A stretch of 64,000 bases of DNA, from positions 1,612,001-1,676,000 of the forward strand of contig NZ_QXMH01000001.1 of the NCBI RefSeq assembly GCF_003568665.1, written 5' to 3'. This document shows positions 28,863 to 49,227 of this stretch, piece after piece; positions within the stretch are counted from its first letter, which is position 1, and each line of letters opens with the position of its first letter. The notes under the pieces are model-generated. The model made no database searches. It saw only the letters and a program-made list of their open reading frames with translations, and was not told where the DNA came from. Origin of the DNA: Chitinophaga alhagiae (GTDB lineage Bacteria > Bacteroidota > Bacteroidia > Chitinophagales > Chitinophagaceae). The position numbers and the translations under genes are program-made.

Positions 28863-28905
28863 GCTCCCCCTGTTGGACTTGAACCAACGACCCTCTGATT
28901 AACAG
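28863..28905. repeat. Left attachment repeat (tRNA-Asn 3' fragment)
   Basis: 43 bases identical to 49185-49227, running from just past the tRNA 3' end to the anticodon loop. It is not a tRNA gene: the 5' half is missing and the following sequence (CCCTTGAGGAGG) does not restore it. Confidence 0.9.
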
Positions 28906-29098: not shown

Positions 29099-30439
29099 AT
29101 GTCATTGAGTATTTCGATCAGCCTGGACACCCGCCGGGCTAAAAAAACGGGAAAGTTTCCGGTGAAGCTGCTGGCAATTTTTAATCGCAAACCTCGCCGC
29201 TACCAGACGGTTTACGACTTGAGCGAGGAAGAATTCAAGGCTTTGTCGGCTAGGCAAAAATCAGAGTGCCTGAAAAAGATGCAAGAAACCCTCAAGCAAT
29301 TGCAGCGAAATGCCGAGGAAGCGGCGGCAGGATTGCAGCCATTCACGTTCGAAGGTTTCGAGAAAGCGTTCATTCTAAACAATCCTTCTTTTCACCAGCG
29401 GAAGGCGATCAAAGAAGTAGCTGAACTCGATAACCACCCTTTCAACCAGGTGATGTATGATAACCGCTTCCCTATTTTCCGGTTGCCCAAGCCAGAGCCC
29501 GACACGATCTTGGCGGTGTTCCTATTTTATATCAGCAAACTTTTGAACGAGCACCGCATCCGGACGGCTGTCCATTACCAGACTACGTACAATATACTTG
29601 CCCGTTTCAGCGGTAATGTACGGTTCGTTGATATTAATGTCAGCTATCTGAAGCGTTTTGAGGCCTGGATGCTGGAGCATGGATATTCTAAGACTACCGT
29701 CGGTATTTACACCCGTTGCTTGCGTGCCGCCTTTAATGAGGCCATTTTCCAGGGAATCATTAAGCGGGAGAACTGTTATCCTTTTGGCCGGAGGCTTTAT
29801 CAACCACCATCCTCCCGGAATATCAAGAAAGCGTTGACGCTGGAGGATGTGAGTAAGATATACTATTACCAGCCCGAAAATGAACGGGAACGGAAGGCGA
29901 AAGACTTTTGGTTGTTTTCTTACCTGGCGAATGGAATCAATCCTACTGATATCATGCATCTTAAATACAAGAATATAGACGGTGATTATCTCGTTTTCGA
30001 GCGGGCCAAGACAGTAAACTCTACAAGGCTTGATCCCCGCCCCATCACGGTATTTATTTCGGATGACATGCAACGGATTATTGACTACTGGGGGAATAAA
30101 GACAAGAGCCCGGAGAATTACATTTTCCCCTGGATGGAGCATAATGTTACACCTTTGCGCCAGGTGGAGTTATGCGAATTGTTTGTCCAGGCGATTAATG
30201 ACTGGATGGCGAAGATCCGGAAGAAGCTGGGTATCGAGAAAAAAGTGACGACCTACGTGGCCAGGCATACCTTTTCAACGATCTTAAAGCGGTCGGGCGT
30301 CAGCACGGAGTTTATCCAGGAATCTTTGGGGCATACCAGCATGAAGACAACGGAAAGTTACCTGGATAGTTTCGAAAAGTCGGTGAAGAAAGAATACTCG
30401 CAGCGTTTGGTGGCTTTTAAGGAGGGTATGGAAAGATGA
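29099..30439 (+). CDS. Tyrosine recombinase (integrase) of the element
   Basis: Site-specific integrase of 446 residues, expected to recombine the tRNA-Asn attachment sites. N-terminal arm-binding part (SISISLDTRRAKKTGKFPVKLLAIFNRK), SAM-like core-binding domain (about 150-240) and catalytic domain. Seen at the C-terminus: Arg389-His390 (VARHTFSTIL), His412 (SLGHTSMKTT) and nucleophile Tyr421 (ESYLDSF). Where most tyrosine recombinases carry the first arginine (TGLR), this one reads YLANGINPTDIMHLKYKNI, so Arg I is missing; this is also known for IntDOT of Bacteroides CTnDOT. The gene points inward from the left end. A terminator follows. Confidence 0.95.
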   Translation: MSLSISISLDTRRAKKTGKFPVKLLAIFNRKPRRYQTVYDLSEEEFKALSARQKSECLKKMQETLKQLQRNAEEAAAGLQPFTFEGFEKAFILNNPSFHQRKAIKEVAELDNHPFNQVMYDNRFPIFRLPKPEPDTILAVFLFYISKLLNEHRIRTAVHYQTTYNILARFSGNVRFVDINVSYLKRFEAWMLEHGYSKTTVGIYTRCLRAAFNEAIFQGIIKRENCYPFGRRLYQPPSSRNIKKALTLEDVSKIYYYQPENERERKAKDFWLFSYLANGINPTDIMHLKYKNIDGDYLVFERAKTVNSTRLDPRPITVFISDDMQRIIDYWGNKDKSPENYIFPWMEHNVTPLRQVELCELFVQAINDWMAKIRKKLGIEKKVTTYVARHTFSTILKRSGVSTEFIQESLGHTSMKTTESYLDSFEKSVKKEYSQRLVAFKEGMER

Positions 30440-31239: not shown

Positions 31240-32226
31240 ATGAGTTTACCAGATATCCAACATTGTCCCGGTACGCTGGCCCCTGGCTATCGGACCTATA
31301 GTCGAACGGCACTTGTCCGGGTCTTCAAGGGCCGCAAGGTAAGTCATCTTCTTCCCTATGATTCACCCGCCTCTAATGCGGCAATGGACGAACTCTTTGA
31401 TGAGAACAGAAAACGCATTTCTATCTCGGGGGTACAAGAAAAATTTTCCGTTCTGCTCGGGAAGAACAAACTTCGATTGATTAACGAGGGCGAACGGGGT
31501 AGCTACATCCTGAAACCAATTCCGGCAGCCGGCCGGCGACCGGACCAGATGCCCGCAAATGAACACCTTACGATGCAGATTGCGCGACAAGTATATCATA
31601 TCGAAACGGCGGAGAATGCGCTGATTTTTTTCCGTAATGGAGCACCCGCGTACATCACCAAACGTTTTGATGTCGATGAAAATGATAGAAAACTCGCGCA
31701 GGAAGATTTTGCATCCCTAGCCGGGCGCACGCCTCAAACACATGGAGAACATTATAAATATCTGGGTAACTATTTGGAGTTATTTCAGCTCATGCAAAAA
31801 TACGTCCCGGCTTATCCCGTAGAAGCGCCCAAATTATTGAAATTGCTCATGTTCAACTATCTCTTCTCAAATGGTGATGCACATTTCAAGAATTTTTCTC
31901 TCCTCGAAACGCCGATGGGGGATTACCGGCTGAGTCCGGCGTATGACTTGCTTAACAGCCGGATCCACATTAAAGACAAGGATTTCGCCTTAGATGATGG
32001 CTTACTCCCCAAAAATTTGGCGCAGGGGAAAATTATGCAGCAGTTTGCAGTATTGGCCGATCAGGCAGGCATTTCCCAGGCCTCTTTCGATGCAATCAGG
32101 CAACTTATGCTTTCCCAAACAGATAAGGTGCAGGAATTAACGTTGGCGTCCTATCTGGATGAAACCACCAAGCGTAATTACTTGCAATCGTATCAAGGCC
32201 GATTGCGGCAACTGGAAAAGACGTGA
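31240..32226 (+). CDS. HipT-like serine/threonine kinase toxin
   Basis: A 328-residue HipA-fold kinase lacking the N-terminal subdomain that is encoded separately upstream. The glycine-rich loop reads RKRISISGVQEKFSVLL, with an SIS double-serine motif at 61-63; in HipT of Escherichia coli an SIS motif in the same loop is autophosphorylated. Other kinase landmarks: SYILKPIP (lysine 92), NGDAHFKN (catalytic Asp213, Asn218) and SPAYDLLN (metal-binding Asp236). HipA/HipT toxins phosphorylate aminoacyl-tRNA synthetases (GltX for HipA, TrpS for HipT); the target here is unknown. Last gene of the operon. Confidence 0.87.
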   Translation: MSLPDIQHCPGTLAPGYRTYSRTALVRVFKGRKVSHLLPYDSPASNAAMDELFDENRKRISISGVQEKFSVLLGKNKLRLINEGERGSYILKPIPAAGRRPDQMPANEHLTMQIARQVYHIETAENALIFFRNGAPAYITKRFDVDENDRKLAQEDFASLAGRTPQTHGEHYKYLGNYLELFQLMQKYVPAYPVEAPKLLKLLMFNYLFSNGDAHFKNFSLLETPMGDYRLSPAYDLLNSRIHIKDKDFALDDGLLPKNLAQGKIMQQFAVLADQAGISQASFDAIRQLMLSQTDKVQELTLASYLDETTKRNYLQSYQGRLRQLEKT

Positions 32227-35409: not shown

Positions 35410-35772
35410 ATGATGACAACGATAGCAACGAAGAAAAAAGCAGGAGGCCGTCCAGTGGCGGCGAAGAAGAAAGCAACAATTGTCCGGGTGCGCTTCGACA
35501 AGGAGCAGTATTTTATCCTCCGGCATAAAGCCCAGAAGGCCGGATTAAACTTCTCCGCTTATCTCCGCCAGGCTGCGGAAGTAACTGTAATCAAAGCCCA
35601 GCTTACCACGGAAGAGCGGGATTTCATCCGAAAGCTTGTAGGAATGGCCAACAACTTGAATCAGTTGGTAAAGGAATTCAAACAAGCCGGCATCTTAAAA
35701 ACTGCCGCCCATGTTGAAGGGCTAAGGGACAAAGTGGATCAGCTATTAAAACTATTGAGAAGTGATAAGTAA
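35410..35772 (+). CDS. MobC-like relaxosome accessory protein
   Basis: A 120-residue basic protein. A ribbon-helix-helix-like start (KKATIVRVRFDKEQYFILRHKAQKAGLNFSAYLRQAAEVTVI) is followed by the MobC signature LTTEERDFIRKLVGMANNLNQLVKEFKQAG. It helps the relaxase to open oriT. The stop overlaps the relaxase GTG start by 11 bases. A second ATG one codon further (35413) is equally possible. Confidence 0.88.
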   Translation: MMTTIATKKKAGGRPVAAKKKATIVRVRFDKEQYFILRHKAQKAGLNFSAYLRQAAEVTVIKAQLTTEERDFIRKLVGMANNLNQLVKEFKQAGILKTAAHVEGLRDKVDQLLKLLRSDK

Positions 35773-36724
35773 GGTTTTCGATGGACATAGCTTTTACCAT
35801 GCCTGCCGGTATATGTGTAACAAACAAGGCGCAGAAGTGCTGGCGACGGAGGGAGTGCGCGGGTATGACTACAAGCTGATGGCGGAAGATTTCATCGGCC
35901 AGGCCGCCCAACGACCTACTAAAAAGCAGGCTTGTTTCCACGCGGTACTGAGCTTTCATCCCCATGAAAAGCCGGAGGATTCCAGGATCGTTGCCATCGC
36001 AAGGGCGTACCTGCAGGAAATTGGCATCTCCAATACCCAGTTTGCCATTACCAAACATACCGACAAAGCGCACCTGCATGTGCATCTCATCGCTAATATG
36101 GTGAACAACGACGCCCGGAGTATCAAAGACAATCATATCGGGTTGAGAGGAAAAAAAGCCGCCCAACAGCTTACCCTGAAACACGGGCTCATCGTAGCCG
36201 AAAGGAAAAACCTGGACCTCACTCACCAGGAAGCGCTCGACCAGTCCGAAGCCAACCGTTACAAAATCTATACGGCTATCATGGAAAGCCTCACGAAATG
36301 CCGGAACCTGGAAGAGCTGGAAGCCCGCCTCAAAACTTATGGCATTGAGGTACTGTACAAGTTTAAAGGACAGACCCAGGAGCGGCAAGGCATCAGTTTT
36401 CGCCTGGAGAAGGATGTTTTCAAGGGCAGCAAAGTAGACCGGAACTTCTCATTGGGCAACCTTGAAAAGACGCTTTCACAGGGTCAGCGGCAAAATCCAA
36501 TCCAGGCTATGGGAGCGACGAATCCAATACCGTTATCCGGGCCTGGCGTTTCTAATACTTCCAATCCGGCTATTCAACTGGCCCAGGAACTTGAGAATAT
36601 AATGCTGCAATCAACCGGTAGCCTGCTATCGGATCTTATGAAGCCGGAGTATGTACCGCAGGGTGTTAACCCCGACTTGTTGCGCGAAGCTCGTAAAAAG
36701 AAGAAGCGTAAAAGACTGCGCTAG
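35762..36724 (+). CDS. Relaxase / mobilisation nuclease
   Basis: DNA-nicking relaxase of 320 residues, starting at GTG 35762 inside the end of mobC. The HUH motif is clear: ITKHTDKAHLHVHLIANMV (His99, His104, His106, His108). A tyrosine near the N-terminus (Tyr12 or Tyr17, in HSFYHACRYMCNKQ) could be the nucleophile. The C-terminal third is low-complexity with a basic tail (ARKKKKRKRLR). It would act at the inverted repeat 35313-35349. Shorter than many relaxases, as usual for small Bacteroidota mobilisable elements. Confidence 0.9.
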   Translation: MISKVFDGHSFYHACRYMCNKQGAEVLATEGVRGYDYKLMAEDFIGQAAQRPTKKQACFHAVLSFHPHEKPEDSRIVAIARAYLQEIGISNTQFAITKHTDKAHLHVHLIANMVNNDARSIKDNHIGLRGKKAAQQLTLKHGLIVAERKNLDLTHQEALDQSEANRYKIYTAIMESLTKCRNLEELEARLKTYGIEVLYKFKGQTQERQGISFRLEKDVFKGSKVDRNFSLGNLEKTLSQGQRQNPIQAMGATNPIPLSGPGVSNTSNPAIQLAQELENIMLQSTGSLLSDLMKPEYVPQGVNPDLLREARKKKKRKRLR

Positions 36725-36742: not shown

Positions 36743-37357
36743 ATGCCAAAAATTCAAACCATGAATGAGCATCTTTTGACCACCCTGACCGAGATCAGTG
36801 AAGGTCACACGAATAAATTAGAACAACACGACCAACAAATCAGCGCCTTGCAGGAAACTATGAGCCAGTTATCAGCATTGAAAGGCGCGCTCAATCACCT
36901 CACCCAAGCCGGCGGTCCCATTAATCAATTATTAATCCATCTACCCGAGCAGTCAAATCTGCACCAGCGCCTGGACCAGACATTGCGGGACACAATCACT
37001 GCCCTTTCACGGCCGCAGGTGCAAAATCACCATCATCATTTCCCCAAGGTTGCCTGGGCGACCGTAGGCTTATTCCTCATGTTATGCCTTGTAAGCACCG
37101 GGTGGTATCTCTCTGCTTCCTGGCTAAACGACTTCCGTGACAATGATATTAAATACCGCTATTTGCAACTTATCGACAACAAGCAGGTGGTCCACCTGCT
37201 GCATTTCACAGATAGTTTGCAAAGAGCGCAGCCTGACTATTTCCGGGACAGCGTGCTTTCTAAGGAAGCGGAAAAGCACCGCCGCCTGGAAATGCTCGAT
37301 GAAGCGAACCGCAAAGAAGCGGAGGCCGAGCAGCTTCGCCAGAGGGCTAAAAAGTAG
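36743..37357 (+). CDS. Coiled-coil membrane protein of the mobilisation module
   Basis: A 204-residue protein with a heptad-rich N-terminal half (HLLTTLTEISEGHTNKLEQHDQQISALQETMSQLSALKGALNHL), a histidine run (QNHHHHFPK) before a single membrane helix (VAWATVGLFLMLCLVSTGWYLSA, about 105-127) and a charged C-terminal helix (KEAEKHRRLEMLDEANRKEAEAEQLRQRAKK). Similar coiled-coil/TM proteins follow relaxase genes in Bacteroidota elements. Function unknown; it might link the relaxosome to the membrane. Convergent with the Cas12f-like gene. Confidence 0.7.
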   Translation: MPKIQTMNEHLLTTLTEISEGHTNKLEQHDQQISALQETMSQLSALKGALNHLTQAGGPINQLLIHLPEQSNLHQRLDQTLRDTITALSRPQVQNHHHHFPKVAWATVGLFLMLCLVSTGWYLSASWLNDFRDNDIKYRYLQLIDNKQVVHLLHFTDSLQRAQPDYFRDSVLSKEAEKHRRLEMLDEANRKEAEAEQLRQRAKK

Positions 37358-37369
37358 TAATTGCCTACT
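37349..37369 (-). terminator. Small terminator-like hairpin after the candidate guide
   Basis: On the minus strand AGTAG pairs with CTACT (37365-37369 and 37353-37357) with a 7-base loop, followed by TTTTT (37349-37353). The stem is only 5 bp, so it is weak. It would end a transcript running out of the Cas12f-like gene about 130 bases past its stop codon, and overlaps the end of the convergent gene. Confidence 0.35.
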
Positions 37370-37482
37370 CTAAACAAGAGAACCCACGCGTTGTATGCAT
37401 TATTATTAAAATGCTCCGTGAGTGCATCGAGGCCTCACGCTACGGGTGTACAAGCACCCTCGTAATAATATTTCGCCGGGCA
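37370..37482 (-). ncRNA. Candidate guide RNA (scaffold plus 20-nt guide) downstream of the Cas12f-like gene
   Basis: The non-coding 3' flank of the Cas12f-like gene folds as a three-way junction: closing stem TATTATTA/TAATAATA (37463-37470 with 37401-37408), hairpin GGGTG/CACCC (37444-37459) and hairpin CGTGAG/CTCACG (37417-37439). It is followed by AATGCATACAAC, similar to the end of Cas12f crRNA repeats (AAUGCAAC), then 20 bases (37370-37389) and the small terminator-like hairpin. In TnpB and Cas12f systems the guide lies 3' of the scaffold, which fits. The guide candidate reads GCGTGGGTTCTCTTGTTTAG; I see no convincing match elsewhere in the window. Boundaries and guide are inference. Confidence 0.42.
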
Positions 37483-38580
37483 CTATTCTACAACCAGGGC
37501 AATGCCCGCTTTGTTGGCTTTGTAGGCAATTTTGTCCTTCAGGCTGTAATAACTCCAGTTGCGCAGCAAAAATTCTTCCTCCTTTGCGGCGGCTTCCTTC
37601 CCTTGCTGACCGGTAAGCAGTAGGGTGGCAACCCGGTGCTTCAGGCATAGGTTGATCAACCGGCGACTGTAAACGTGCAGTTTATAGTTCACATACCGCT
37701 TTTCCGCGCCCCGGTAATGCTCCAGATTTTGCAGTTTCCGGGTTAAGCCGTTCTTTGACCGGTTATAGGTGGCGGATTGCTGGCAGCGATGAAGCGCTTT
37801 TTGAATGGCCAGCCGCCGGTACAGGAAATCTTCTTTGGTGCCGATGGAATAGCTATGCCGCCCGATTTTTACCCGGATCGGAATTTCCATCGATAGGGTG
37901 GCTTCGGCCACTACTTCCGGATGAAGGGCATGATCCTCTTTTGAAACCTCGAACGTCGCCAGCAGGAAGAACTTGTGCTCTTCCACCTGGATGGAGCTGG
38001 TGCACAGTTTATACTCTCCTCTGAGGGCGGCTTCCCAGATCGCCCGCTTGTCACCGCCCTTTTTTCCAAAATACAGGCGGAAGGTGTGGCCAAATATCTG
38101 GCAGGTATAAAACCGACCGCCGTCTTCCTGTTTTATCTGGCGGAGGTCAGTAGGGGCGATTGGCATCGGAATATCCCGTCGGAAACTCCTGAGTGACCGC
38201 TCCCCTTTCCAAAGCCTGTCCCTTTCCTTGCTGAAGCTAAACACCAGTATTTTATTCAGGCACCCCAGGATGCTCATGGGCATTTGTCCTTTGAAATACC
38301 GGCTGAGCAACTGGTAGGTAGTTCCGATCTGCGACATCGTGAGAATGCCGTCCTTATCTTTCTTTATGTCCGCCAGTCTTACCCGTACTTCATCCGTGAA
38401 ATAGAATAAGTCCTTGACCTGTTCCTGGATGAACTGGTGGGTGTAGATGAAATTGGCGGCCCGGTGGACCATTCGCTGCCATCGCCAGAAAGTTTCCCGC
38501 GTTTGGCGCTTCACTGCGGGATCTTCCGAATGGATCAATAGTTGGATTTTCCGGGTCAGCACTACCTTGTTTTCCTTCAT
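37483..38580 (-). CDS. Cas12f/TnpB-like protein, predicted nuclease-dead
   Basis: A 365-residue protein from the ATG at 38580, which overlaps the sigma gene stop (ATGA). The N-terminal helical part (WRWQRMVHRAANFIYTHQF...) and a beta-rich wedge-like part lead to a RuvC-like C-terminus. TnpB/Cas12-like features: KGERSLRSFRRDIPMPI, YKLCTSSIQVEEHKFFLLATFEV, YVNYKLHVYSRRLINLCLKHRVATLLL and NWSYYSLKDKIAYKANKAGI (341-360, matching the TnpB block W-x-F-x-x-L-x-x-x-x-x-Y-K-A). Catalytic residues are missing: VVAEATLSM (223-231) where RuvC-I GxDxG is expected, TLLLTGQQG (319-327) where RuvC-II has E; the protein ends at GIALVVE, before zinc finger and RuvC-III. It should bind RNA and DNA without cutting. 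Confidence 0.72.
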   Translation of the reverse strand: MKENKVVLTRKIQLLIHSEDPAVKRQTRETFWRWQRMVHRAANFIYTHQFIQEQVKDLFYFTDEVRVRLADIKKDKDGILTMSQIGTTYQLLSRYFKGQMPMSILGCLNKILVFSFSKERDRLWKGERSLRSFRRDIPMPIAPTDLRQIKQEDGGRFYTCQIFGHTFRLYFGKKGGDKRAIWEAALRGEYKLCTSSIQVEEHKFFLLATFEVSKEDHALHPEVVAEATLSMEIPIRVKIGRHSYSIGTKEDFLYRRLAIQKALHRCQQSATYNRSKNGLTRKLQNLEHYRGAEKRYVNYKLHVYSRRLINLCLKHRVATLLLTGQQGKEAAAKEEEFLLRNWSYYSLKDKIAYKANKAGIALVVE

Positions 38581-39380
38581 CGCTTTGCAGGTTTGAGGAT
38601 TTCTTGAGCTGACACGTACTCTTTCAGGGCTTGCCAAAGGGGAATATGTAACTCCTGGGCAATCCTGTCAAAACTGTATTGTCGCTCTAGCCTTAACTGG
38701 CAGACTTTTATTTGGAGATCATTGAGTAGCTTACTCCAATGAGAGGGTGGTGAACTGCCAGAGGCGATCTGGTAGGTGGGTTCCGGTAGCTTTATTCGCA
38801 GGATCATTTTTTTTAATGCATTAATACTTTCCTGCACCTCCTGGCTGATTTGTTGGTAAGGTGCGGCAAAGCGGCTGGCAATTTCCTTTAGGCTGAGGCC
38901 ATAGCGGAAGTAAAGCGTCATGATGGTTTGGCGGTTACCCGGCAGGTAGGGAATGGCGTCCTTTACCAGGTTAATTCTTTCCTGCTCCGTATTGGAAAGG
39001 CCTGCAAGATCTTCCTCCTTATCAGGATCGTATGCCGCTGCCTTATGATCCTCAAGGTATTCAGGATGTATAAGTTGACTGTAGAACCGGTTTGCCGGTT
39101 GCCGGAAATAGTCATAACAACCCCATCGGGTACATAACCGGATGAAGCGGAACAGGTGCAACATGCTGGTCATGCACTCCCGGAACTGCCAGGCGCGGAG
39201 AAAGGCTTCCTGGACAATGGTGTGATTGGCGAATTCATCCCCTGTTATGCGATTGGCGTAATATAGAACCGGTTTGTAGAGATGCTCATATATATAGGTG
39301 AAGGCTCCCTCCTGGCCTTTTTGATAAAGGAGGAAGTATGACTCGTTTTCCGGAGTATTCGTGGTTATGTAGTGATTCAT
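38577..39380 (-). CDS. ECF-like sigma factor with C-terminal extension, partner of the Cas12f-like protein
   Basis: A 267-residue sigma-70-family protein. Region 2 covers about 13-95 (YQKGQEGAFTYIYEHLYKPVLYYANRITGDEFANHTIVQEAFLRAWQF ... LFRFIRLCTRWGCYDYFR), region 4 about 135-195 (RINLVKDAIPYLPGNRQTIMTLYFRYGLSLKEIASRFAAPYQQISQEVQESINALKKMI). Beyond region 4 there are about 70 extra residues, ending in a further HTH-like segment (LRLERQYSFDRIAQELHIPLWQALKEYV) not present in ordinary ECF factors. No FecR or other anti-sigma gene is nearby. The ATGA overlap with the Cas12f-like gene implies coupled synthesis and probably a physical complex. The gene is preceded by a highly structured leader. Confidence 0.85.
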   Translation of the reverse strand: MNHYITTNTPENESYFLLYQKGQEGAFTYIYEHLYKPVLYYANRITGDEFANHTIVQEAFLRAWQFRECMTSMLHLFRFIRLCTRWGCYDYFRQPANRFYSQLIHPEYLEDHKAAAYDPDKEEDLAGLSNTEQERINLVKDAIPYLPGNRQTIMTLYFRYGLSLKEIASRFAAPYQQISQEVQESINALKKMILRIKLPEPTYQIASGSSPPSHWSKLLNDLQIKVCQLRLERQYSFDRIAQELHIPLWQALKEYVSAQEILKPAKR

Positions 39381-39409
39381 GGCGTCGGCAGCTTGTCAGT
39401 AAGTAATGT

Positions 39410-39600
39410 AAGCCCGTAAGGACCGGTGCTGCCCAACGCATAAAGAAGACGTGGGTTGGTCCTTACCGCACTGAAGGGCTGCGACACCCTGAATCCGAAT
39501 AAGAACGCCCACGCCTTTGCCTTTAAAGATATAAAGGAAAACGTGAGCGATTTACCCTATTCTCGGATTCTTGAAAGGTCGCAGTTTTCAGTGCGAGAAC
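39410..39600 (-). ncRNA. Large structured RNA immediately upstream of the sigma gene
   Basis: The minus strand forms a compact set of nested helices. CGCACTGAA (39587-39595) pairs with TTCAGTGCG (39467-39475) and CTGCGAC (39578-39584) with GTCGCAG (39479-39485). Inside, GAATCCG/CGGATTC (39564-39570, 39491-39497), CGCTCACG/CGTGGGCG (39542-39549, 39506-39513) and CCTTT/AAAGG (39533-39537, 39520-39524) stack up. Directly adjoining, GTAAGGACC (39458-39466) pairs with GGTCCTTAC (39416-39424), with an inner CCCACG/CGTTGGG stem. The last helix ends 36 bases before the sigma ATG. It may be a scaffold RNA (tracr/guide-like) for the Cas12f-like protein or a cis-acting leader of the operon. A weak promoter-like pair (TATTTG, minus strand at 39606-39611) precedes it. 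Confidence 0.6.
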
Positions 39601-39834
39601 TAAAGCAAATACGCTTAATTATTATATTTTGAAGCAACTATGTGCTGTTGGTAGATGAATGAGTCTTCATAAACAAAAAAATATGGATAATAACGAAGAT
39701 AGTAAATAGTTCCGAATTTCAGAAATATAATATCGTTATTAGGAAATTTAATTCTGTTTTTTAGCTTTTATCTGCTCAGAATGAATTATTTGAGGTTCTT
39801 ATATTGCCTACTTAATGGTGAAATTCGCTATTAT
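39601..39834. other. A+T-rich divergent promoter region
   Basis: It separates the sigma operon (minus) from the restriction system (plus). No gene is seen; the minus strand has TTGC (near 39635) and TATTTG (39606-39611), loosely fitting a Bacteroidota promoter with a rather long 23-base spacer. An in-frame ATG at 39781 could start the next gene 18 codons earlier. Confidence 0.4.
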
Positions 39835-40050
39835 ATGGTTGAAAAACGGACATTGAATAGAATAAAGAGCGTATTAGCCGACAAGGATAAAACGAACTTA
39901 TGGCTTGCTGAGAAATTAGGTAAAAATAAGAGCACCATTTCAAAATGGTGTACTAATGATCAACAACCTACATTGGAGACCTTATTTGATATTGCAGAAG
40001 CATTGGAGGTAAATGTTTGCGAGTTATTAATTAGTAAAAAGAAAATGTAA
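39835..40050 (+). CDS. XRE-type HTH regulator, probable controller of the restriction system
   Basis: A 71-residue HTH protein from the ATG at 39835 (MVEKRTLNRIKSVLADKDKTNLWLAEKLGKNKSTISKWCTNDQQPTLETLFDIAEALEVNVCELLISKKKM). It lies 21 bases upstream of hsdR on the same strand. Small XRE proteins ahead of restriction-modification genes usually act as controller (C) proteins that delay restriction on entering a new host. An in-frame ATG at 39781 would add 18 residues of hydrophobic character that do not fit the family. Confidence 0.82.
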   Translation: MVEKRTLNRIKSVLADKDKTNLWLAEKLGKNKSTISKWCTNDQQPTLETLFDIAEALEVNVCELLISKKKM

Positions 40051-40071
40051 TCGTATTCCCCTTTTTTGTCT

Positions 40072-42894
40072 ATGTCTGAAATATCCACTAACCAAAACCC
40101 GGAACAAATAGCCCGAGACCGAATTGATCGTATGCTTATGGATGCGGGCTGGATCGTTCAGTCTAAGAAACGTATTGATTTTAGTGCGGGTTTAGGAATC
40201 GCAATCAGGGAGTATCAGACAAGTGTTGGCCCAGCGGATTACGTTTTGTTCGTAGGTCAACAACCACTGGGGTTAATTGAGGCCAAAAAAGAAGATGATG
40301 GACACCGATTAACGGTTGTAGAAGATCAATCTGCCGACTATGCAACCGCCCACCTCAAATTTTTCACAAACACAGAGGGGCTGAAATATATCTATGAAAG
40401 CACCGGTGTGCTTACCAGATTTACAGATTATACCGATCCCAAACCGCGTGGCCGCAGTGTATTTTCTTTTCATCGTCCAGAAACGCTGCTGGAATGGTCC
40501 AAAAAAGAAAAAAGTCTCCGGGGCCGTTTTGCAGATTTTCCTAAATTGGATGAAACCGGCCTGCGCCCAGCACAAATTGTTGCCATCAATAACCTAGAAA
40601 AATCTTTTAAAGGAAATCGCCCCCGCGCATTGATCCAGATGGCGACAGGCGCGGGCAAGACATTTACAGCAGCCACTTTCATCTACCGGTTATTGAAATT
40701 TGCCAAAGCTAAACGGATATTGTTTCTTGTAGATACCAAAAACCTTGGCGAACAGGCGGAACAGGAGTTTATGGCCTATCAGCCAAATGATGATAATAGA
40801 AAATTTACCGAGCTGTATAATGTTCAGCGACTCGCGTCAACTTACATTGCAAATGAAAGCCAGGTTTGCATTTCTACCATTCAACGAATGTACTCCATTC
40901 TTAAAGGCGAAGAAATGGATGAGTTTGCTGATGAAACTAATCCCAATGAAAGCGGCTCCTGGCTGCAGCAGCATCTTAATAAAAAGGATCCGTTGCCCGT
41001 TGTGTACAATCCTAAAGTGCCGATTGAACAGTTTGATTTCATTATCATAGATGAATGCCACCGTTCTATTTACAATTTATGGAAGCAGGTACTCGACTAT
41101 TTCGATGCTTTTCTGATTGGGTTGACCGCTACCCCCGACAAACGCACCTTTGGTTTCTTTAATGAAAATGTAGTAAGCCAGTACACTTATGAAGAATCTG
41201 TGATTGACGGTGTAAATGTACCTTATGATGTTTACGAGATTGAAACTCATATCTCTCAAAAAGGAGCTAAAGTGAAAAAAGGGTGGTTTGTAGACCGTCG
41301 GGACAAACTCTCGCGGGCAAAAAGATGGCAACAAGAAGACGAAGACACCGAGTATTACAAAAATGATCTTGATAAGAAAGTTGTTAACCCCAGCCAAATA
41401 CGCACGATCATCAAAGCATATAAAGAGGCGCTGAGAAAAGATATTTTTCCGAAACGTATCGATGAAAATGGGGAATACGAAGTGCCGAAAACACTCATTT
41501 TCGCCAAAACGGACAGTCACGCAGATGACATCATTCAAATTGTTCGGGAGGAATTTGATGAAAGCAACGACTTCTGTAAAAAAGTGACCTATAAGATAGA
41601 AGAGGATCCCAAGTCGGTATTAAACCGCTTCCGCAATGACTATTATCCACGCATAGCCGTTACGGTGGATATGATAGCTACTGGTACTGACGTAAAGCCC
41701 CTGGAGGTGCTTCTATTTATGCGGGATGTAAAAAGCATCAATTACTTTGAGCAGATGAAAGGGCGTGGTACCCGAACTATTCCGCCGGATAAACTCCAAC
41801 TGGTTACTAAGACCGCAGATATCAAAACTCATTTTGTGATTGTAGATGCAGTCGGCGCTATTAAATCAAAGAAAACGGATAGCCGTCCCCTGGAACGTCA
41901 GCCTACAGTAGCTTTAAAAGATCTTTTGCAGGCGGTAACAATGGGGGTAAACGAGGAAGATGTGTTCCTTTCTTTGGCGAACAGGTTGATACGGTTGGAT
42001 AAACAGCTTACCGAAACTGAAGCCGTAAAGCTCCAGGAATACGCCAATGGCAGAACCCTGAAGCAGCTCACAAAAATGCTGATAGATGCCTGGGATCCAG
42101 ATGTGATCGAGACAAGGGCAAAAGCAATTATTGAACAGACTCCGCCGGTAGACCGCAGCCCAGCAATGGAGGAACAGGCAAGGCAGGATGCACAAAAGGT
42201 ATTGGCAAAAGAAGCCTCGCTGCTTTTTAATGGTAGACTGAACGAATACATAGATACGGTACGTCGCCAACACGACCAGATCATTGATCACATTAACTTG
42301 GATACGGTGCTAAAAGCCGAATGGAATAAAACATCCATGGATGCTGCCCAAAATCTAATAACCGATTTTACTGCCTACCTAGAAGCCAATAAAGACGAAA
42401 TAAAGGCGTTAAGTATTTTTTACAACCAGCCTTACAATCGGCGGGAAATAACCTTTAAGATGATCAAAGAAGTGATGGAAAAAATAAAGTTAGAAAAACC
42501 GATGCTTGCCCCAGCCTACGTTTGGGATGCATTTGCTATCATAGAAAAGACCAATGGAGACTGTCCGAAAGATGAGCTAACCGCATTGGTCTCGCTGATA
42601 CGCCGGATTTGTGGCATTGATAAAGAGCTACGGCCTTATGATAAGACTATTGACGACAATTTCAAAAAGTGGATTTTTGCGCAGAATGCCGGTCAGCATA
42701 ACCGTTTTACACAGGAGCAAATGGACTGGCTCCGTATGATCAAAGACCACATCATAAGTTCCTACCATATTGAATTGGATGACCTGGATTATACTCCTTT
42801 TGACGCCCGCGGTGGCCGTGGTAGGATGTATCAATTGTTTGGTAATGAAATGGATCAGATTATTAACGAATTAAACGAAGCGTTGGCAGCATGA
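40072..42894 (+). CDS. hsdR: Type I restriction enzyme, R subunit
   Basis: ATP-dependent translocase/endonuclease subunit of 940 residues. The N-terminal nuclease has a PD-(D/E)xK pattern (GPADYVLFVGQQPLGLIEAKKE). Superfamily 2 motor: Walker A LIQMATGAGKTFTAATFIYRLL, DECH box FIIIDECHRSIYN, motif III LIGLTATP, motif V/VI AVTVDMIATGTDVKPLEVLLFMR...FEQMKGRGTR. The C-terminal helical region binds the methylase core. I start at ATG 40072 rather than the TTG two codons upstream. It overlaps hsdS by 4 bases. Confidence 0.95.
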   Translation: MSEISTNQNPEQIARDRIDRMLMDAGWIVQSKKRIDFSAGLGIAIREYQTSVGPADYVLFVGQQPLGLIEAKKEDDGHRLTVVEDQSADYATAHLKFFTNTEGLKYIYESTGVLTRFTDYTDPKPRGRSVFSFHRPETLLEWSKKEKSLRGRFADFPKLDETGLRPAQIVAINNLEKSFKGNRPRALIQMATGAGKTFTAATFIYRLLKFAKAKRILFLVDTKNLGEQAEQEFMAYQPNDDNRKFTELYNVQRLASTYIANESQVCISTIQRMYSILKGEEMDEFADETNPNESGSWLQQHLNKKDPLPVVYNPKVPIEQFDFIIIDECHRSIYNLWKQVLDYFDAFLIGLTATPDKRTFGFFNENVVSQYTYEESVIDGVNVPYDVYEIETHISQKGAKVKKGWFVDRRDKLSRAKRWQQEDEDTEYYKNDLDKKVVNPSQIRTIIKAYKEALRKDIFPKRIDENGEYEVPKTLIFAKTDSHADDIIQIVREEFDESNDFCKKVTYKIEEDPKSVLNRFRNDYYPRIAVTVDMIATGTDVKPLEVLLFMRDVKSINYFEQMKGRGTRTIPPDKLQLVTKTADIKTHFVIVDAVGAIKSKKTDSRPLERQPTVALKDLLQAVTMGVNEEDVFLSLANRLIRLDKQLTETEAVKLQEYANGRTLKQLTKMLIDAWDPDVIETRAKAIIEQTPPVDRSPAMEEQARQDAQKVLAKEASLLFNGRLNEYIDTVRRQHDQIIDHINLDTVLKAEWNKTSMDAAQNLITDFTAYLEANKDEIKALSIFYNQPYNRREITFKMIKEVMEKIKLEKPMLAPAYVWDAFAIIEKTNGDCPKDELTALVSLIRRICGIDKELRPYDKTIDDNFKKWIFAQNAGQHNRFTQEQMDWLRMIKDHIISSYHIELDDLDYTPFDARGGRGRMYQLFGNEMDQIINELNEALAA

Positions 42895-45020
42895 TGAAAC
42901 GGGATTGGATAGAATGTAAATTAGAAGATATACTGGACACTACATCAGGTGGTACTCCCAACCGAAAACATGCACATTATTATAATGGAAATATTCCTTG
43001 GGTTAAATCTGGGGAACTAAAAAGTAATGTTATCATTTCAGCAGATGAGCATATTACTGGGGAGGCGATACAAAATTCAAGCGCTAAAGTATTTCCGAAA
43101 GGGACGATTTTAATTGCTCTATATGGGGCAACGATTGGAAGGATAGCTGTACTAGGTATCGATGCAGCCACAAATCAGGCAGTTTGTGGCATTTTTGAAA
43201 CCCCGTATGTTTATACAAAATTTACTTATCACCTGCTTCACAGCAAAAGACCTTTTTTACTTAAACAAGCTATTGGCGGAGCACAGCCAAATATAAGTCA
43301 AACTATTTTGAAAAGTTTGCATATCGCGCTTCCTCCACTTCCTGAACAACGTGCCATCGTAAAAAAAATAGAACAATTATTCTCAGCATTAGATGCAGGT
43401 ATTGCAGATCTGAAAAAGGCTCAGGAACAGTTGGAAGTATACCGGCAGGCCGTGTTGAAAAAGGCGTTTGAGGGAAAACTAACAAGAAAATGGAGGAAAG
43501 ACAAGGGATTGACTCCAGCTTTTGAATTCCTGAAAGATATTTCAAAAAAACGCATGAGTAGCGGCTATAAAAAAGGCTCAATATACCATAACAAATTGTC
43601 GCACGACTTCAAGTTCAGTGTTGATCCAAATATTTCAACTTGGGCCCGCGGCACGCTCGACAAACTAGTGTACATAGCCGCACGAATAGGGTGGAGAGGT
43701 CTTAAAAAAGATGAATATCAGAAAGAAGGTCCACTTTTCTTAAGTGTACATTCTTTAAATCATGGAAAATACGTTGATTACAATGAGGCATTTCATATAT
43801 CCATTGAGAGATATCAAGAAAGCCCGGAAATTCAATTAGAAGAGGGGGATGTTTTACTTTGCAAGGACGGTGCAGGTATCGGAAAATTAGGCATTGTTAA
43901 GAATTTGCCGAATAAAGCCACTGTAAATTCCTCCGTTTTAGTAATTAGGGGTATGGAAATTTTGAATCAAGACTTTCTATATTATTTATTTCTTGGCCCT
44001 GATTTGCAGAAAATAGTTTCTGAAAGGATCACCGGCAGCGCAACTCCCCATCTATTCCAAAATGATATCAGACAGTTCGAGTTGTCAATCCCTCCACCTG
44101 AAGAACAGCTACAGATTGTCAAGGAAATAGAAGCCCGGTTATCCATTTGCGATACACTTGAGCAACAAATAAATGCCAGCCTGCAAGAATCAGAAGCCTT
44201 GCGACAAAGCATTCTAAAAAAAGCATTTGCCGGAGAATTGCTTACCCGAGCGGAAATAGCGGCCTGCAAAAAAGAGCCGGATTATGAACCAGCTTCGGCG
44301 CTACTCGAAAGAATTAAAGAAGAAAAGGGAAATGTTAAGACCATAAATAAGAAAATAACTTCCTCGCAAGAAATAAAACCTGTAATCGTTAAGGCGCCCA
44401 AAATTTCCTCCGATATTCACGCAGGGCTTATTGCTAAGATTATAAAACTGCATGAAACAAATCCGGATCATAGGGATAAACTAAGTCATATAAAATGCGA
44501 GAAGATTGCCCATTTAGTAGAGTACCATGCGCAGGTTCCGCTAGGCCGTCAACCTGTAAAAGATGCCGCTGGGCCGGATGATTATCCACATCTGAAGAAG
44601 GTGGAAAGCCGCGCCATCAAAGCCGGTTTTTTCAAGATTAAGAAAAACAATATTGGTTATACATATTTATCGGGGAATCAAATTGATAGTGTAATTCATA
44701 AATTTGAAAACTCCCTCTCTATTGACCAAAATGATAAGGTGAATGCACTGCTTCAAGTATTCCTGCAATTTGACCTGGAACAGGCAGAAATTGCGGCAAC
44801 TACGTATGCAGGATGGAATAACCTGATCATATTGGGGAATAGTAATCCTTCCGATGAAGAAATAGTTACCGAATCCAGGGAGAACTGGTCTGCCCGTAAA
44901 TTGAAAATCTCGCGAGAGCGTTTTTTCAATGCTATTAATTGGCTAAGGAAAAAAGAAGTCAATTTAATTCCCACTGGTTACGGGCTACTTGTACCATCAC
45001 CTTTAAAAAAGAAGAAATGA
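42891..45020 (+). CDS. hsdS: Type I restriction system specificity subunit with unusual C-terminal extension
   Basis: DNA-specificity subunit. Two target-recognition domains with the usual conserved helices: TRD1 (about 5-150, WIECKLEDILDTTSGGTPNRK ... ISQTILKSLHIALPPLPEQRAIVKKIEQLFSALDA) and TRD2 (about 250-410, ending FQNDIRQFELSIPPPEEQLQIVKEIEARLSICDTLEQQINASLQ). After the expected end (LRQSILKKAFAGELL, about 450) there are some 250 more residues: a charged linker and an alpha/beta domain (DIHAGLIAKIIKLHETNPDHRDKLSHIKCEKIAHLVEYHAQVPLGRQPVKDAAGPDDYPHLKKVESRAIKAG...). Total 709 residues against the usual 380-460. Starts overlapping hsdR (ATGATG) and ends overlapping hsdM (ATGA). Confidence 0.9.
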   Translation: MMKRDWIECKLEDILDTTSGGTPNRKHAHYYNGNIPWVKSGELKSNVIISADEHITGEAIQNSSAKVFPKGTILIALYGATIGRIAVLGIDAATNQAVCGIFETPYVYTKFTYHLLHSKRPFLLKQAIGGAQPNISQTILKSLHIALPPLPEQRAIVKKIEQLFSALDAGIADLKKAQEQLEVYRQAVLKKAFEGKLTRKWRKDKGLTPAFEFLKDISKKRMSSGYKKGSIYHNKLSHDFKFSVDPNISTWARGTLDKLVYIAARIGWRGLKKDEYQKEGPLFLSVHSLNHGKYVDYNEAFHISIERYQESPEIQLEEGDVLLCKDGAGIGKLGIVKNLPNKATVNSSVLVIRGMEILNQDFLYYLFLGPDLQKIVSERITGSATPHLFQNDIRQFELSIPPPEEQLQIVKEIEARLSICDTLEQQINASLQESEALRQSILKKAFAGELLTRAEIAACKKEPDYEPASALLERIKEEKGNVKTINKKITSSQEIKPVIVKAPKISSDIHAGLIAKIIKLHETNPDHRDKLSHIKCEKIAHLVEYHAQVPLGRQPVKDAAGPDDYPHLKKVESRAIKAGFFKIKKNNIGYTYLSGNQIDSVIHKFENSLSIDQNDKVNALLQVFLQFDLEQAEIAATTYAGWNNLIILGNSNPSDEEIVTESRENWSARKLKISRERFFNAINWLRKKEVNLIPTGYGLLVPSPLKKKK

Positions 45021-46543
45021 CAGACGCAACAATAATATCAAAAATATGGAACCTGGCCAATGTAATGCGTGATGATGGAGTAGGTTATGGTGATTACCTT
45101 GAGCAGATCACTTACCTGTTGTTTTTAAAAATGATAGATGAGCTTAACAAACCACCCTACAGTAAAAAACTCCACCTGCCCAGGTTGAAGGATGTTGCTG
45201 GAAAAGAAATACCGAAAGGGGAAGTGTGCAACTGGCAGAATCTTACTAATAAAAATGGGGCAGAGCTTGAAGCATTTTATACTCAGTTATTACGTACTCT
45301 TTCCACTGAAAAGGGAATGCTGGGCCAAATTTATGTTAAGAGCCAGAATAAAATCCAAGATCCGGCTAAATTACAGCGTGTTATCAGCATGATAGAGAAA
45401 GAGAATTGGATGTTGCTTGGTGCCGATGTTAAGGGTCGGATTTATGAAGGGCTGTTGGAGAAGAATGCGGAAGACGTAAAATCTGGTGCAGGGCAATACT
45501 TTACCCCACGAGCGCTAATAAAAACAATGGTGAAATGTATTCAGCCCAAGCCGTTAAGGACAATTGCTGATCCTTCCTGCGGATCGGGTGGTTTTTTTTT
45601 AGCAGCTTACGACTGGATCACGGAAAACAACAAGTTAGATAAAGACGAGAAGGAATTTCTAAAGAATCAAACGTTTCATGGCAATGAGATCGTTGCAAGT
45701 ACACGACGTATGTGCTTGATGAACTTGTATCTGCATGGTATTGGGGAGATTGACAAGGAGCCTCTAATTGATTCAGGAGATGCATTGATATCGGAACCTA
45801 AACAAACTTACCACTATGTGTTGGCCAATCCACCATTTGGAAAGAAAAGCAGCATCACGATAACCAACGAAGAAGGCGAACTGGAACAAGAAGACCTGAG
45901 CTATAATCGTCAGGACTTTTGGGAGACCACCAGCAACAAGCAACTAAATTTCCTACAGCATATCAAAACGCTTTTGAGTATAGATGGTGAAGCGGCGGTA
46001 GTGTTGCCAGACAATGTTTTGTTCGAGGGTGGCGCAGGTGAGGAAATACGAAAGCAATTACTTAAGACTACTGAGCTGCATACCATTCTACGTTTACCTA
46101 CGGGAATATTTTATGCCCAGGGCGTAAAGGCCAATGTATTGTTCTTCAAAAATAAGCGGGGAGGAAAAGAGAACGCTACCAAAGAGCTTTGGATTTACGA
46201 TTATCGGACCAATGTACACCACACCTTAAAGAAGAAGCCATTAACAGAAGCCGATCTCGATGATTTTGTTAAATGCTACAATGCATCCAATATTTATAAA
46301 CGTAAAGAAACCTGGAGCGATTCTAATTCTGACGGGAGATGGCGTAAATTCAGCTATGATGATATTTTAGCTCGAGATAAAACCAGTTTGGATATTTTCT
46401 GGATTAAGGATAAAAGCCTAACCGATTTGGACAACCTTCCTGATCCTGATGTGCTGGCATTAGAAATAATTGACAACATTGAATCAGGGCTCGGAAACTT
46501 CCGACAGTTACTAGATGATTTAAAGGACATGGAGGCGAATTGA
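45017..46543 (+). CDS. hsdM: Type I restriction system DNA methyltransferase subunit
   Basis: N6-adenine methyltransferase of 508 residues. Helical N-terminal domain (IWNLANVMRDDGVGYGDYLEQITYLLFLKMIDEL), SAM-binding motif I ADPSCGSGGFFLAAYDWI, FTPRALIKTMV ahead of it, and catalytic motif IV VLANPPFGKKS (NPPF). The ATG at 45017 overlaps the hsdS stop; longer readings into hsdS are not needed. The gene order R-S-M differs from the common R-M-S or M-S-R. Confidence 0.95.
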   Translation: MTDATIISKIWNLANVMRDDGVGYGDYLEQITYLLFLKMIDELNKPPYSKKLHLPRLKDVAGKEIPKGEVCNWQNLTNKNGAELEAFYTQLLRTLSTEKGMLGQIYVKSQNKIQDPAKLQRVISMIEKENWMLLGADVKGRIYEGLLEKNAEDVKSGAGQYFTPRALIKTMVKCIQPKPLRTIADPSCGSGGFFLAAYDWITENNKLDKDEKEFLKNQTFHGNEIVASTRRMCLMNLYLHGIGEIDKEPLIDSGDALISEPKQTYHYVLANPPFGKKSSITITNEEGELEQEDLSYNRQDFWETTSNKQLNFLQHIKTLLSIDGEAAVVLPDNVLFEGGAGEEIRKQLLKTTELHTILRLPTGIFYAQGVKANVLFFKNKRGGKENATKELWIYDYRTNVHHTLKKKPLTEADLDDFVKCYNASNIYKRKETWSDSNSDGRWRKFSYDDILARDKTSLDIFWIKDKSLTDLDNLPDPDVLALEIIDNIESGLGNFRQLLDDLKDMEAN

Positions 46544-46677: not shown

Positions 46678-47931
46678 ATGATCGCTAATAAAATAACTAT
46701 TGAGTTTAACAAAATAAAAGAGAGCATAACTGATGTCTACATCGCCGTGGGTATGGTGACAGATAATAAATTTGATTTTTTCATGCGTAATGTTTCACCA
46801 AAAGCAAATATTGCGCTAATTACAGGAATACATTTGCCTACGCCCCCAAAGGTTTTACAGAAACTGAAGGAAAGTAACTTTGTCCGGGCTAAAGCCTACA
46901 CAAGGAAATTTTTCCACCCTAAACTATACTTATTTAAAACTAATAATGATTGGATAGCTTTTGTGGGCTCAGGTAACTTTACTAACGGGGGATGGCATGA
47001 GAACGAAGAACTATTTATTAAAATTACTGATCAAATAATCTGTCAAAAATTAAAGGAGAAATTCGATTCTTGGTTTGATGAAGCTGTTGATATTACTAAT
47101 AAATTTTTGGAAGTCTATTCCCAAATCTACTTCGCAAATTTGCCAAAACAGAAAGAGCTGCAATCAAACACTAAGCAGTTACTGGATCTATTAAATAATA
47201 CGTTTAACATCAACAATATTGATTTTTCGGGTCAGCTTTTCATCAAGAGTGATCATCAAGCTTTTGAGCCAGGAAAAACTCACCTTGAAACAGTGGAAAT
47301 TTTAGGTGAAAGAAGTGAGGTCCGCCGAAAACTATTTGAATTGAATGATCTATTAGTTGCTGCATTTCCACGCGAATGGTCAATATATCCACATTATGAA
47401 AATGAACATATAGTTGCGCATATTGAAAATCACTTTCATCATGACTTTAATGTGAAAGCTTTATGGATTGCATATGGACGAAATAGGCAAGAATTAAAAG
47501 AATATGGGGATTGGGCCACTCCACTGCTTTTTATGCGTATGCAAGTAATTGTACGCTACAATGAAATTGGAATTTGGTTGATGCCAGGCAAACAAGGAGC
47601 TGGACAAATTGATCGCGAAAATTTCGCGCTTCGAATGAGAGAAATTCAATTCAGATCAACCTTTTTTAACCTAATCAAACAATTAGGCGACTCTTTCTGG
47701 ATTGAAATCGCAGGAGATACTAAACCAGTGTTGGATTTTGAAACCCCAGAGGCTTTATGGGAATTCACTACCCATGATAATTGGCGTAATTACTATTTTA
47801 CTATTGGGAAGAATTTCAAATTAGGCACAGCAGAACTGAGCAAAACTAATATTGTAGAAACAATTTTAGATGTCTTTGGAAGATTTATTCCAATTTACAA
47901 TTTGATTAAAGATAATAGCCTGAATAAATAA
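46678..47931 (+). CDS. Phospholipase D-superfamily protein, probable nuclease or defence accessory
   Basis: A 417-residue protein with one HKD motif: FFHPKLYLFKTNNDWIAFVGSGNFTNGGWHENEE (about 79-112). The H-x-K-x4-D pattern here reads H-P-K-L-Y-L-F-K-T-N-N-D, followed by the typical GSGNFT. PLD-like nucleases with one motif act as dimers. The remainder (about 170-417) is not recognised. Codons are A+T-rich, unlike the mobilisation genes. It starts 134 bases after hsdM on the same strand, as accessory genes of restriction systems do. No membrane helix or signal peptide. Confidence 0.75.
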   Translation: MIANKITIEFNKIKESITDVYIAVGMVTDNKFDFFMRNVSPKANIALITGIHLPTPPKVLQKLKESNFVRAKAYTRKFFHPKLYLFKTNNDWIAFVGSGNFTNGGWHENEELFIKITDQIICQKLKEKFDSWFDEAVDITNKFLEVYSQIYFANLPKQKELQSNTKQLLDLLNNTFNINNIDFSGQLFIKSDHQAFEPGKTHLETVEILGERSEVRRKLFELNDLLVAAFPREWSIYPHYENEHIVAHIENHFHHDFNVKALWIAYGRNRQELKEYGDWATPLLFMRMQVIVRYNEIGIWLMPGKQGAGQIDRENFALRMREIQFRSTFFNLIKQLGDSFWIEIAGDTKPVLDFETPEALWEFTTHDNWRNYYFTIGKNFKLGTAELSKTNIVETILDVFGRFIPIYNLIKDNSLNK

Positions 47932-49184: not shown

Positions 49185-49227
49185 GCTCCCCCTGTTGGAC
49201 TTGAACCAACGACCCTCTGATTAACAG
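49185..49227. repeat. Right attachment repeat, inside the intact tRNA-Asn gene
   Basis: 43 bases identical to 28863-28905. Together with the unique 5' part (49228-49259) it keeps the tRNA gene complete, as is usual for tRNA-targeting integrative elements. Confidence 0.9.

Follow-up and report, generated by a model that had tools for sequence, protein, structure and literature searches.

We have analysed a pair of overlapping genes on the reverse strand of a 64,000-nucleotide stretch of the Chitinophaga alhagiae genome (contig NZ_QXMH01000001.1, positions 1,612,001 to 1,676,000; this whole stretch is called the window, and its own numbering is used), together with the RNA elements predicted to lie on either side of them. 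An earlier note on this DNA had placed both genes here, with an ATGA overlap between the sigma gene and a gene of 365 amino acids (aa), and had read them as an extracytoplasmic function (ECF) sigma factor paired with a nuclease-dead Cas12f (dCas12f) in an RNA-guided transcription system. The positions and the overlap are confirmed in the sequence, both frames are open, and the reading is supported by sequence, predicted fold, the partner sigma factor and a neighbouring guide RNA (gRNA) gene. The gRNA, its guide and the leader RNA were not identified in that note. The features of the system are as follows.

38577-39380 (-): gene for an ECF-like sigma factor of 267 aa, identified by Pfam, NCBIfam and a PDB match
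37483-38580 (-): gene for dCas12f of 365 aa, RuvC-dead and without zinc finger or RuvC-III, identified by sequence and predicted fold
37390-37461 (-): gRNA scaffold with two conserved hairpins and a short third stem, then ATACAAC, from alignment, pair counts and fold centroid
37370-37389 (-): predicted guide of about 16-19 nt directly after the scaffold, from conservation between species
39443-39601 (-): leader RNA, a long hairpin with two mutually exclusive helices, a terminator-like stem and a T-run, from covariation
39495-39515 (-): candidate own target, with a 5'-G at 39515 and the protospacer from 39514

Identity of the gene pair

The sigma factor carries regions 2 and 4, as had been claimed (Pfam E 1.5e-5 and 1.1e-7, respectively), and region 4 stops at residue 191 of 267, which leaves a C-terminal extension beyond it. 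This extension is included when residues 16-263 are aligned with the RpoE chain 9n9q_C in a PDB search (E 9.1e-25). The 365-aa protein has no Pfam match, and its NCBIfam matches to TnpB (E 7.2e-10) and Cas12f2 (E 3.3e-5) both lie far under the curated cut-offs. Its residues 7-364 match the PDB entries for 'Nuclease-deactivated Cas12f' (9n9c, 9n9m, 9n9o and 9n9q) with E 7.1e-107, and an AlphaFold model built from 12 aligned sequences (mean predicted local distance difference test score 76.6) finds its best structural match in 9n9m (template-modelling score 0.83, 46% identity), active Cas12f entries coming next. The predicted fold is that of Cas12f rather than one lacking the RuvC/wedge architecture, and the profile searches favour TnpB/Cas12f, as does the PDB, with no unrelated family preferred. 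Inspection of the active site reveals that the RuvC-I aspartate is missing from the window protein and from its 11 aligned homologues (12 of 12 sequences). The RuvC-II glutamate is likewise absent, although the further statement that a threonine stands in its place does not hold, since the glutamate faces a gap in the alignment with Al3Cas12f. The absence of the zinc finger and RuvC-III is also confirmed, because the protein stops at the same point as the solved dCas12f. No anti-sigma gene was recognised among the neighbouring frames and Pfam matches, and no CRISPR array was seen, the window holding one scaffold and guide and the direct repeats of 28500-49400 including no array-like family.

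Dead Cas12f from Bacteroidota, acting with an ECF sigma factor and a guide RNA, reportedly initiates transcription, according to reports from 2025. For the dCas12f-sigmaE relatives it is reported that the guide selects DNA lying behind a 5'-G and that RNA polymerase is brought in by the sigma factor with no need of an ordinary promoter, transcription starting about 46 bp past the R-loop. The likeness of the window system to dCas12f-sigmaE (RpoE; the four entries above) extends to full-length dCas12f homology with the same end point, an adjacent sigma factor with a matching C-terminal extension and a gRNA scaffold beside the gene. All tested features fit, and the window pair is therefore almost certainly a further member of that already known kind. 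With type V-F Cas12f nucleases, such as Al3Cas12f and AsCas12f, the protein shares its fold, and the end of the scaffold resembles Cas12f crRNA repeats. Unlike these nucleases, however, the protein lacks the catalytic residues, the zinc finger and RuvC-III, and no array-like repeat family is listed on the element that carries it; with a single scaffold and guide, a type V-F CRISPR-Cas nuclease is ruled out. An IS200/IS605 TnpB is ruled out as well, by the protein and its neighbourhood though with no search for element ends: the protein ends before the zinc finger, and the genes recognised around it belong to the mob, XRE and hsd types. TldR repressors are derived from TnpB and are not known to have a sigma partner. 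According to PMC13418256, TldR is a nuclease-dead TnpB-type protein that works as an RNA-guided transcription factor, and to that extent the window protein resembles it. It differs from TldR in being nearest to dCas12f by sequence and fold, in having a sigma partner, whose gene overlaps its own, and in being a predicted activator, and we rule out that it is a TldR repressor by identity. The sigma factor itself shares regions 2 and 4 with the ECF sigma factors of Bacteroidota (Sig70_bacteroi1), but differs from them in its dCas12f partner, its long C-terminal extension and the lack of a recognised anti-sigma gene.

The guide RNA and the leader RNA

The regions downstream of dCas12f genes share a common scaffold ending in ATACAAC or a variant of it, followed by variable sequence, which is how the gRNA gene beside dCas12f was predicted. 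Of 16 scaffold copies found, 14 were aligned; none of these breaks any of the 10 proposed pairs, but only one pair varies on both sides, and the gRNA does not stand out in folding energy (z -0.69). The window guide starts with GCGTGGG at 37389. The same 20 nt form the guide of genome G636, and the guide of C. eiseniae, whose locus is the same as that of the same-genus genome G633, differs at 3 of 20 positions; among three Mucilaginibacter species 16 guide bases are common. The first guide is followed by a second copy of the repeat-like sequence, with TACAAT at its end, in the style of a two-unit array at three loci (L025 4700-4990, and L026 and L027 4850-4990). When the guides of L026 and L027 were read before this second copy they gave no leader match, and the L027 leader matches neither reading. 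Two further dCas12f homologues with a gRNA scaffold, at L030 4900-6110 and L029 4950-6210, have no sigma gene found near them, and the L030 guide reaches into the beginning of a gene resembling response regulators, so that dCas12f might act as a repressor there.

On the other side of the gene pair, the leader RNA is preceded by a short conserved AGC...GCT element that extends up to 39615. In a model-fitted alignment of 35 copies, which leans toward the modelled structure, 22 of 29 leader pairs show two-sided changes, and the covariation score is 0.498, against 0.198 in shuffled and at most 0.095 in slid versions. The competing terminator helix was assessed in a MAFFT alignment of 21 of 28 copies, where its 8 outer pairs are 100% paired, four of them with two-sided changes. 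The apical helix and the terminator helix share one strand and both are supported; therefore, the leader looks bistable. An Rfam search of window positions 37300-39800 gave no match up to E 5, and a search of 8 leader loci brought up nothing but two Flavo-1 matches below threshold, both outside the L106 leader. We consider the leader a candidate new structured RNA family without a curated Rfam match.

The leader is widespread, occurring in other Bacteroidota too and often ahead of SusC/SusD operons or mobile genes. Of 60 genomes of the genus, 27 were found by DNA search to carry it, the window's own included, mostly before other genes (30 loci displayed). At least 14 of 17 genomes carrying dCas12f or a dCas12f fragment hold leader copies, a lower bound because that search scored the best 150 candidates per genome. 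Downstream of leaders in dCas12f genomes, 7 of 16 neighbourhoods contain SusD by Pfam and others hold mobile genes, such as recombinases; for SusC, L123 is the one locus with Pfam confirmation. Ten further neighbourhoods were read by eye. Most leaders are preceded by a small divergent frame, in which Pfam recognises a helix-turn-helix (HTH) domain in 5 of the 6 tested, the window included (L137 has none). This arrangement of regulator, leader and operon recurs at other leaders, and the XRE gene of the window is part of the same pattern. By eye, the leaders L126, L129, L167 and L170 lie a few genes ahead of large serine-recombinase-like genes, and others precede HEPN (L047, Pfam) or histidine-kinase-like genes. 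Leader and divergent HTH frame together may form the control region of such elements. A diverged leader at L068 3536-3684 (genome G257; E 5e-11) is followed by a stretch like the start of this sigma gene, and the protein search found no dCas12f match in that genome, so that this is perhaps a decayed copy.

Guide-leader matches and the proposed activation

A protein search found dCas12f in 4 of 298 genomes of the order and in 12 of 394 of the family, several of the latter being fragments or weak TnpB-like matches, and a profile search found it in 8 of 395 genomes of the phylum (the window's own is included in each count). A pattern-based scan of genome contigs gave 6 dCas12f loci, and the plasmid and phage collections yielded distant matches only (3 of 72,556 and 1 of 50,697 records, respectively). 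We compared 22 systems; the fragments L033-L035 are not among them, L033 being the remainder of the G342 gene. The sigma gene lies beside dCas12f in 20 of the 22; G753 and G739 have it divided between two frames, and in G342, where dCas12f is cut by the contig end, it lies about 0.5 kb away. At L029 (G367) and L030 (G597b) no sigma gene was detected within about 5 kb. If dCas12f and its gRNA worked mainly as a TldR-like repressor that blocks read-through of the leader, such loci would fit, and a dead RuvC protein can serve as a roadblock; the overlap of sigma and dCas12f genes here, their adjacency in 20 of 22 systems and the match of the window sigma to the RpoE of the solved entry nevertheless make this role extremely improbable. 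In G1007 (L180 2811-10589), the sigma-dCas12f genes lie downstream of what look by eye like SusC/SusD genes.

The guides were compared with the leaders by sliding each 16-mer of every gRNA locus over them. In a further comparison a 5'-G was required and p values came from shuffled guides; the floor of p is 0.0003 with 3000 shuffles and 0.0002 with the 5000 used for held-out systems. The window guide matches its own sigma leader at 12 of 16 positions, the first 7 contiguous, behind a 5'-G (p 0.0070). The next four matches also stand behind a 5'-G. The G636 guide matches leader L081 at 15 of 16 and the G661 guide matches L091, which lies before a TlpA-SusC-SusD operon, at 14 of 16 (both p 0.0003); these two p values are optimistic because the leaders came from the guide search, and what counts is that model R1, in whose construction neither was used, recognises both sites as leaders. 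The match of the G597a guide, picked from two possible repeat ends after the match had been seen, is 14 of 16 (p 0.0007), and that of G633 to its own sigma leader is 13 of 16 (p 0.0023). When the 16-mers were slid over the leaders, G636, G661 and G597a had their highest sense score where scaffold and guide meet, or an equal score one base further on, and the same holds for G660 against the G661 and G662 leaders. The window's junction 16-mer ties for the top score with neighbouring 16-mers, and in G633 the junction scores 13, with unrelated antisense matches scoring 14 and 13. For G636, G661, G597a, G633 and the window, the matched stretch belongs to the terminator's 5' arm, and from protospacer position 1 it is 66-71 nt to the start of the T-run. 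A later search of the phylum yielded six more systems, which were held out, and scaffold pattern and guide could be read in four of them. Here the G761 guide, GCGTGGGCTCTCTTAT, matches its own sigma leader at 15 of 16 behind a G (p 0.0002). Read one base later than the scaffold rule, the G753 guide matches at 13 of 16 (p 0.0002; by the rule, 13 of 16 in sense without the G, p 0.0008) and the G979 guide at 11 of 16 (p 0.008). In G739 and G1007 the scaffold pattern was not found.

These matches suggest the following course of events. The dCas12f protein would bind the guide RNA encoded just downstream of its gene, and the guide would bring it to DNA behind a 5'-G, where the partner sigma factor would recruit RNA polymerase for a promoter-free start, as expected from homology to the relatives. 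The guide would most likely address the terminator arm of the bistable leader, in the window that of the leader before its own sigma-dCas12f genes. A start about 46 bp past the R-loop would be close to where the terminator stem ends, so that the 5' arm would be missing from the new transcript, and initiation downstream of this arm would mean that the terminator cannot form. Attenuation would then be bypassed and the operon would switch itself on; some relatives would activate further genes under leader control as well, the TlpA-SusC-SusD operon being an example. On the whole we somewhat favour this account, a dCas12f-sigmaE activator with a leader arm as its target and with self-activation, over the alternatives taken together.

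An action at the level of RNA would begin from the same strand relationship. The guide is the sense strand of a terminator arm, and the gRNA, sharing the sequence of the 5' arm, might pair with the 3' arm and block termination with or without dCas12f; its bases 2-9 can indeed pair with AACCCACG of the 3' arm. The Mucilaginibacter guide, however, is shifted and by eye shows no match to the 3' arm, the best targets carry a 5'-G, and a relative forms a DNA R-loop in the solved complex, the title of 9n9m naming a dCas12f-gRNA-DNA complex with a partial R-loop. We therefore regard the RNA-level explanation as highly improbable.

Several observations weigh against leader-directed self-activation. 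The window's match to its own leader is only 12 of 16, and a search of its genome that allowed as many as 3 mismatches in 20 returned no site apart from the guide. In G636 the better target, L081, is not the sigma leader, and the sigma leader has an A, not a G, in front. The p values of G636 and G661 and the choice of the G597a guide carry the bias stated above. G662 is borderline (11 of 16, p 0.052), the rule-read guides of G753 and G979 have no G before the sense match, and by the scaffold rule the best match of G979 is antisense (12 of 16). For the guides of G130, G663, G177, G597b, G367, G361, G287 and G664, several of them with an uncertain start, none of the leaders found in the respective genome gave a match (p >0.4), and G663 has a sigma leader that its guide does not match. 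G660 and G1027 carry a Mucilaginibacter-type guide with no matching leader found in the same genome, and within the 20 kb searched in G1027 the only leader match was spurious (E 0.4). Of 9 same-genus genomes where the protein search found no dCas12f, at least 8 nevertheless carry leaders, so the leader is not specific to the dCas12f system. Finally, the dCas12f frames are interrupted in G636 (L067) and C. eiseniae (L002).

Taken over the 22 systems, a same-genome leader match, in which the guide has the sequence of the leader strand itself and usually a 5'-G stands before it, is present in 8 (the window, G636, G633, G661, G597a, G761, G753 and G979), borderline in 1 (G662) and not found for a guide of the same type in 3 (G660, G130 and G1027), and the remaining 10 (G663, G664, G177, G597b, G287, G367, G361, G342, G739 and G1007) are without a match or unresolved; the tally counts systems rather than independent origins, and several of these last 10 have a guide whose start is uncertain. 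Such a distribution leaves room for a working dCas12f-sigmaE activator aimed at a different gene, located elsewhere or carried by another element, the resemblance of the window's guide to the leader being inherited from a leader-targeting ancestor. The window's 12 of 16, the guides of many relatives that are unlike leaders and the 15 of 16 target of G636 outside its sigma leader all speak for it. Yet the guide is identical in G636 and kept at 17 of 20 positions in C. eiseniae, the window genome has no other site within 3 mismatches in 20, and the held-out G761 guide matches its own sigma leader at 15 of 16. We consider such a target away from the leader rather unlikely. That the system is a decaying or silent remnant, with no current function, seems very improbable. 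The interrupted frames of G636 and C. eiseniae, a stop in the dCas12f homologue L006 of Mucilaginibacter lacusdianchii and the seemingly split sigma frames of G753 and G739 would agree with decay; against this, both window frames are open and the guide is conserved across species, gRNA and guide being conserved in L006 as they are in L067 and L002.

Target sites were also sought elsewhere. The window genome has one more leader-like match of note (G000:C8:1243771-1243918, E 1.2e-4), which contains GCGTGGG without a 5'-G, matches about 10 of 18 by eye and was not counted as a target; two others reach only E 0.9. In 60 genomes of the genus the guide pattern occurs at 14 sites, namely 3 gRNA genes, 5 sites in leaders (three of them in one genome, G650) and 6 that are not leader-like, of which 3 were checked with R1 and 3 were judged without it. 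Because the reversed control pattern gave 37 sites, the number is not above chance and only the location is informative. In viral contigs the exact guide pattern occurs in 4 stretches, with no leader in them by R1, and the L003 guide has, besides itself, two 3-mismatch sites in its own genome, both inside predicted genes.

The mobile element and its implications

The system was said to be cargo of a tRNA-integrated mobilisable element, placed between mobilisation and restriction modules, and both statements hold. A perfect 43-bp repeat within tRNA-Asn bounds a segment with integrase, relaxase, NikA/MobC and type I restriction genes, in the order NikA/MobC, relaxase, dCas12f system, XRE and hsdRSM.

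28863-49227 (no strand): mobilisable element of 20.4 kb, with perfect 43-bp direct repeats at 28863-28905 and 49185-49227
29099-30439 (+): tyrosine integrase (Pfam)
31240-32226: gene with a HipA-like C-terminal domain, within the element
35410-35772 (+): mobilisation protein, NikA-like/MobC (Pfam scan)
35762-36724 (+): relaxase, MobA/VirD2-like (Pfam E 1.9e-31)
39781-40050 (+): divergent XRE/HTH_3 regulator (Pfam HTH_3 E 1.7e-10)
40066-46543 (+): type I restriction genes hsdR, hsdS and hsdM (Pfam)

The element also holds a CHC2/Toprim primase-like gene. Beside the type I restriction genes a PLD/NgoFVII-type nuclease-like gene (46678-47931) is perhaps more defence cargo. The gene past the leader varies in relatives, being by eye PAPS-reductase/DndC-like in C. 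eiseniae and HsdM-like in G636. Through such an element RNA-guided activation may spread among strains. Riding on a tRNA-integrated mobilisable element appears to set the window system apart from the solved dCas12f-sigmaE systems. The probable target in the window, a bistable leader RNA before its own operon, is a second apparent difference; a literature search on riboswitches and leaders gave no leader-RNA target for dCas12f-sigmaE, the primary papers being outside its reach.

In summary, what would be new here is a leader-directed, probably self-activating circuit, with comparative support from sequence in 8 of 22 systems and a weaker case in the window itself. Tentatively, and as something close to an even call, we suggest that a mobile and chromosomal dCas12f-sigmaE family is wired by its guides to an uncurated bistable leader, forming a self-sustaining switch past a terminator that in some hosts is coupled to leader-bearing SusC/SusD uptake operons and mobile genes. 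The window offers a probable RNA-guided regulator on a mobilisable element with exact candidate sites, 39495-39515 and 37370-37461. If the proposal is true, the native target logic of RNA-guided sigma factors would be to override a leader-RNA attenuator, their own included, and one guide could switch a whole class of leader-controlled genes.

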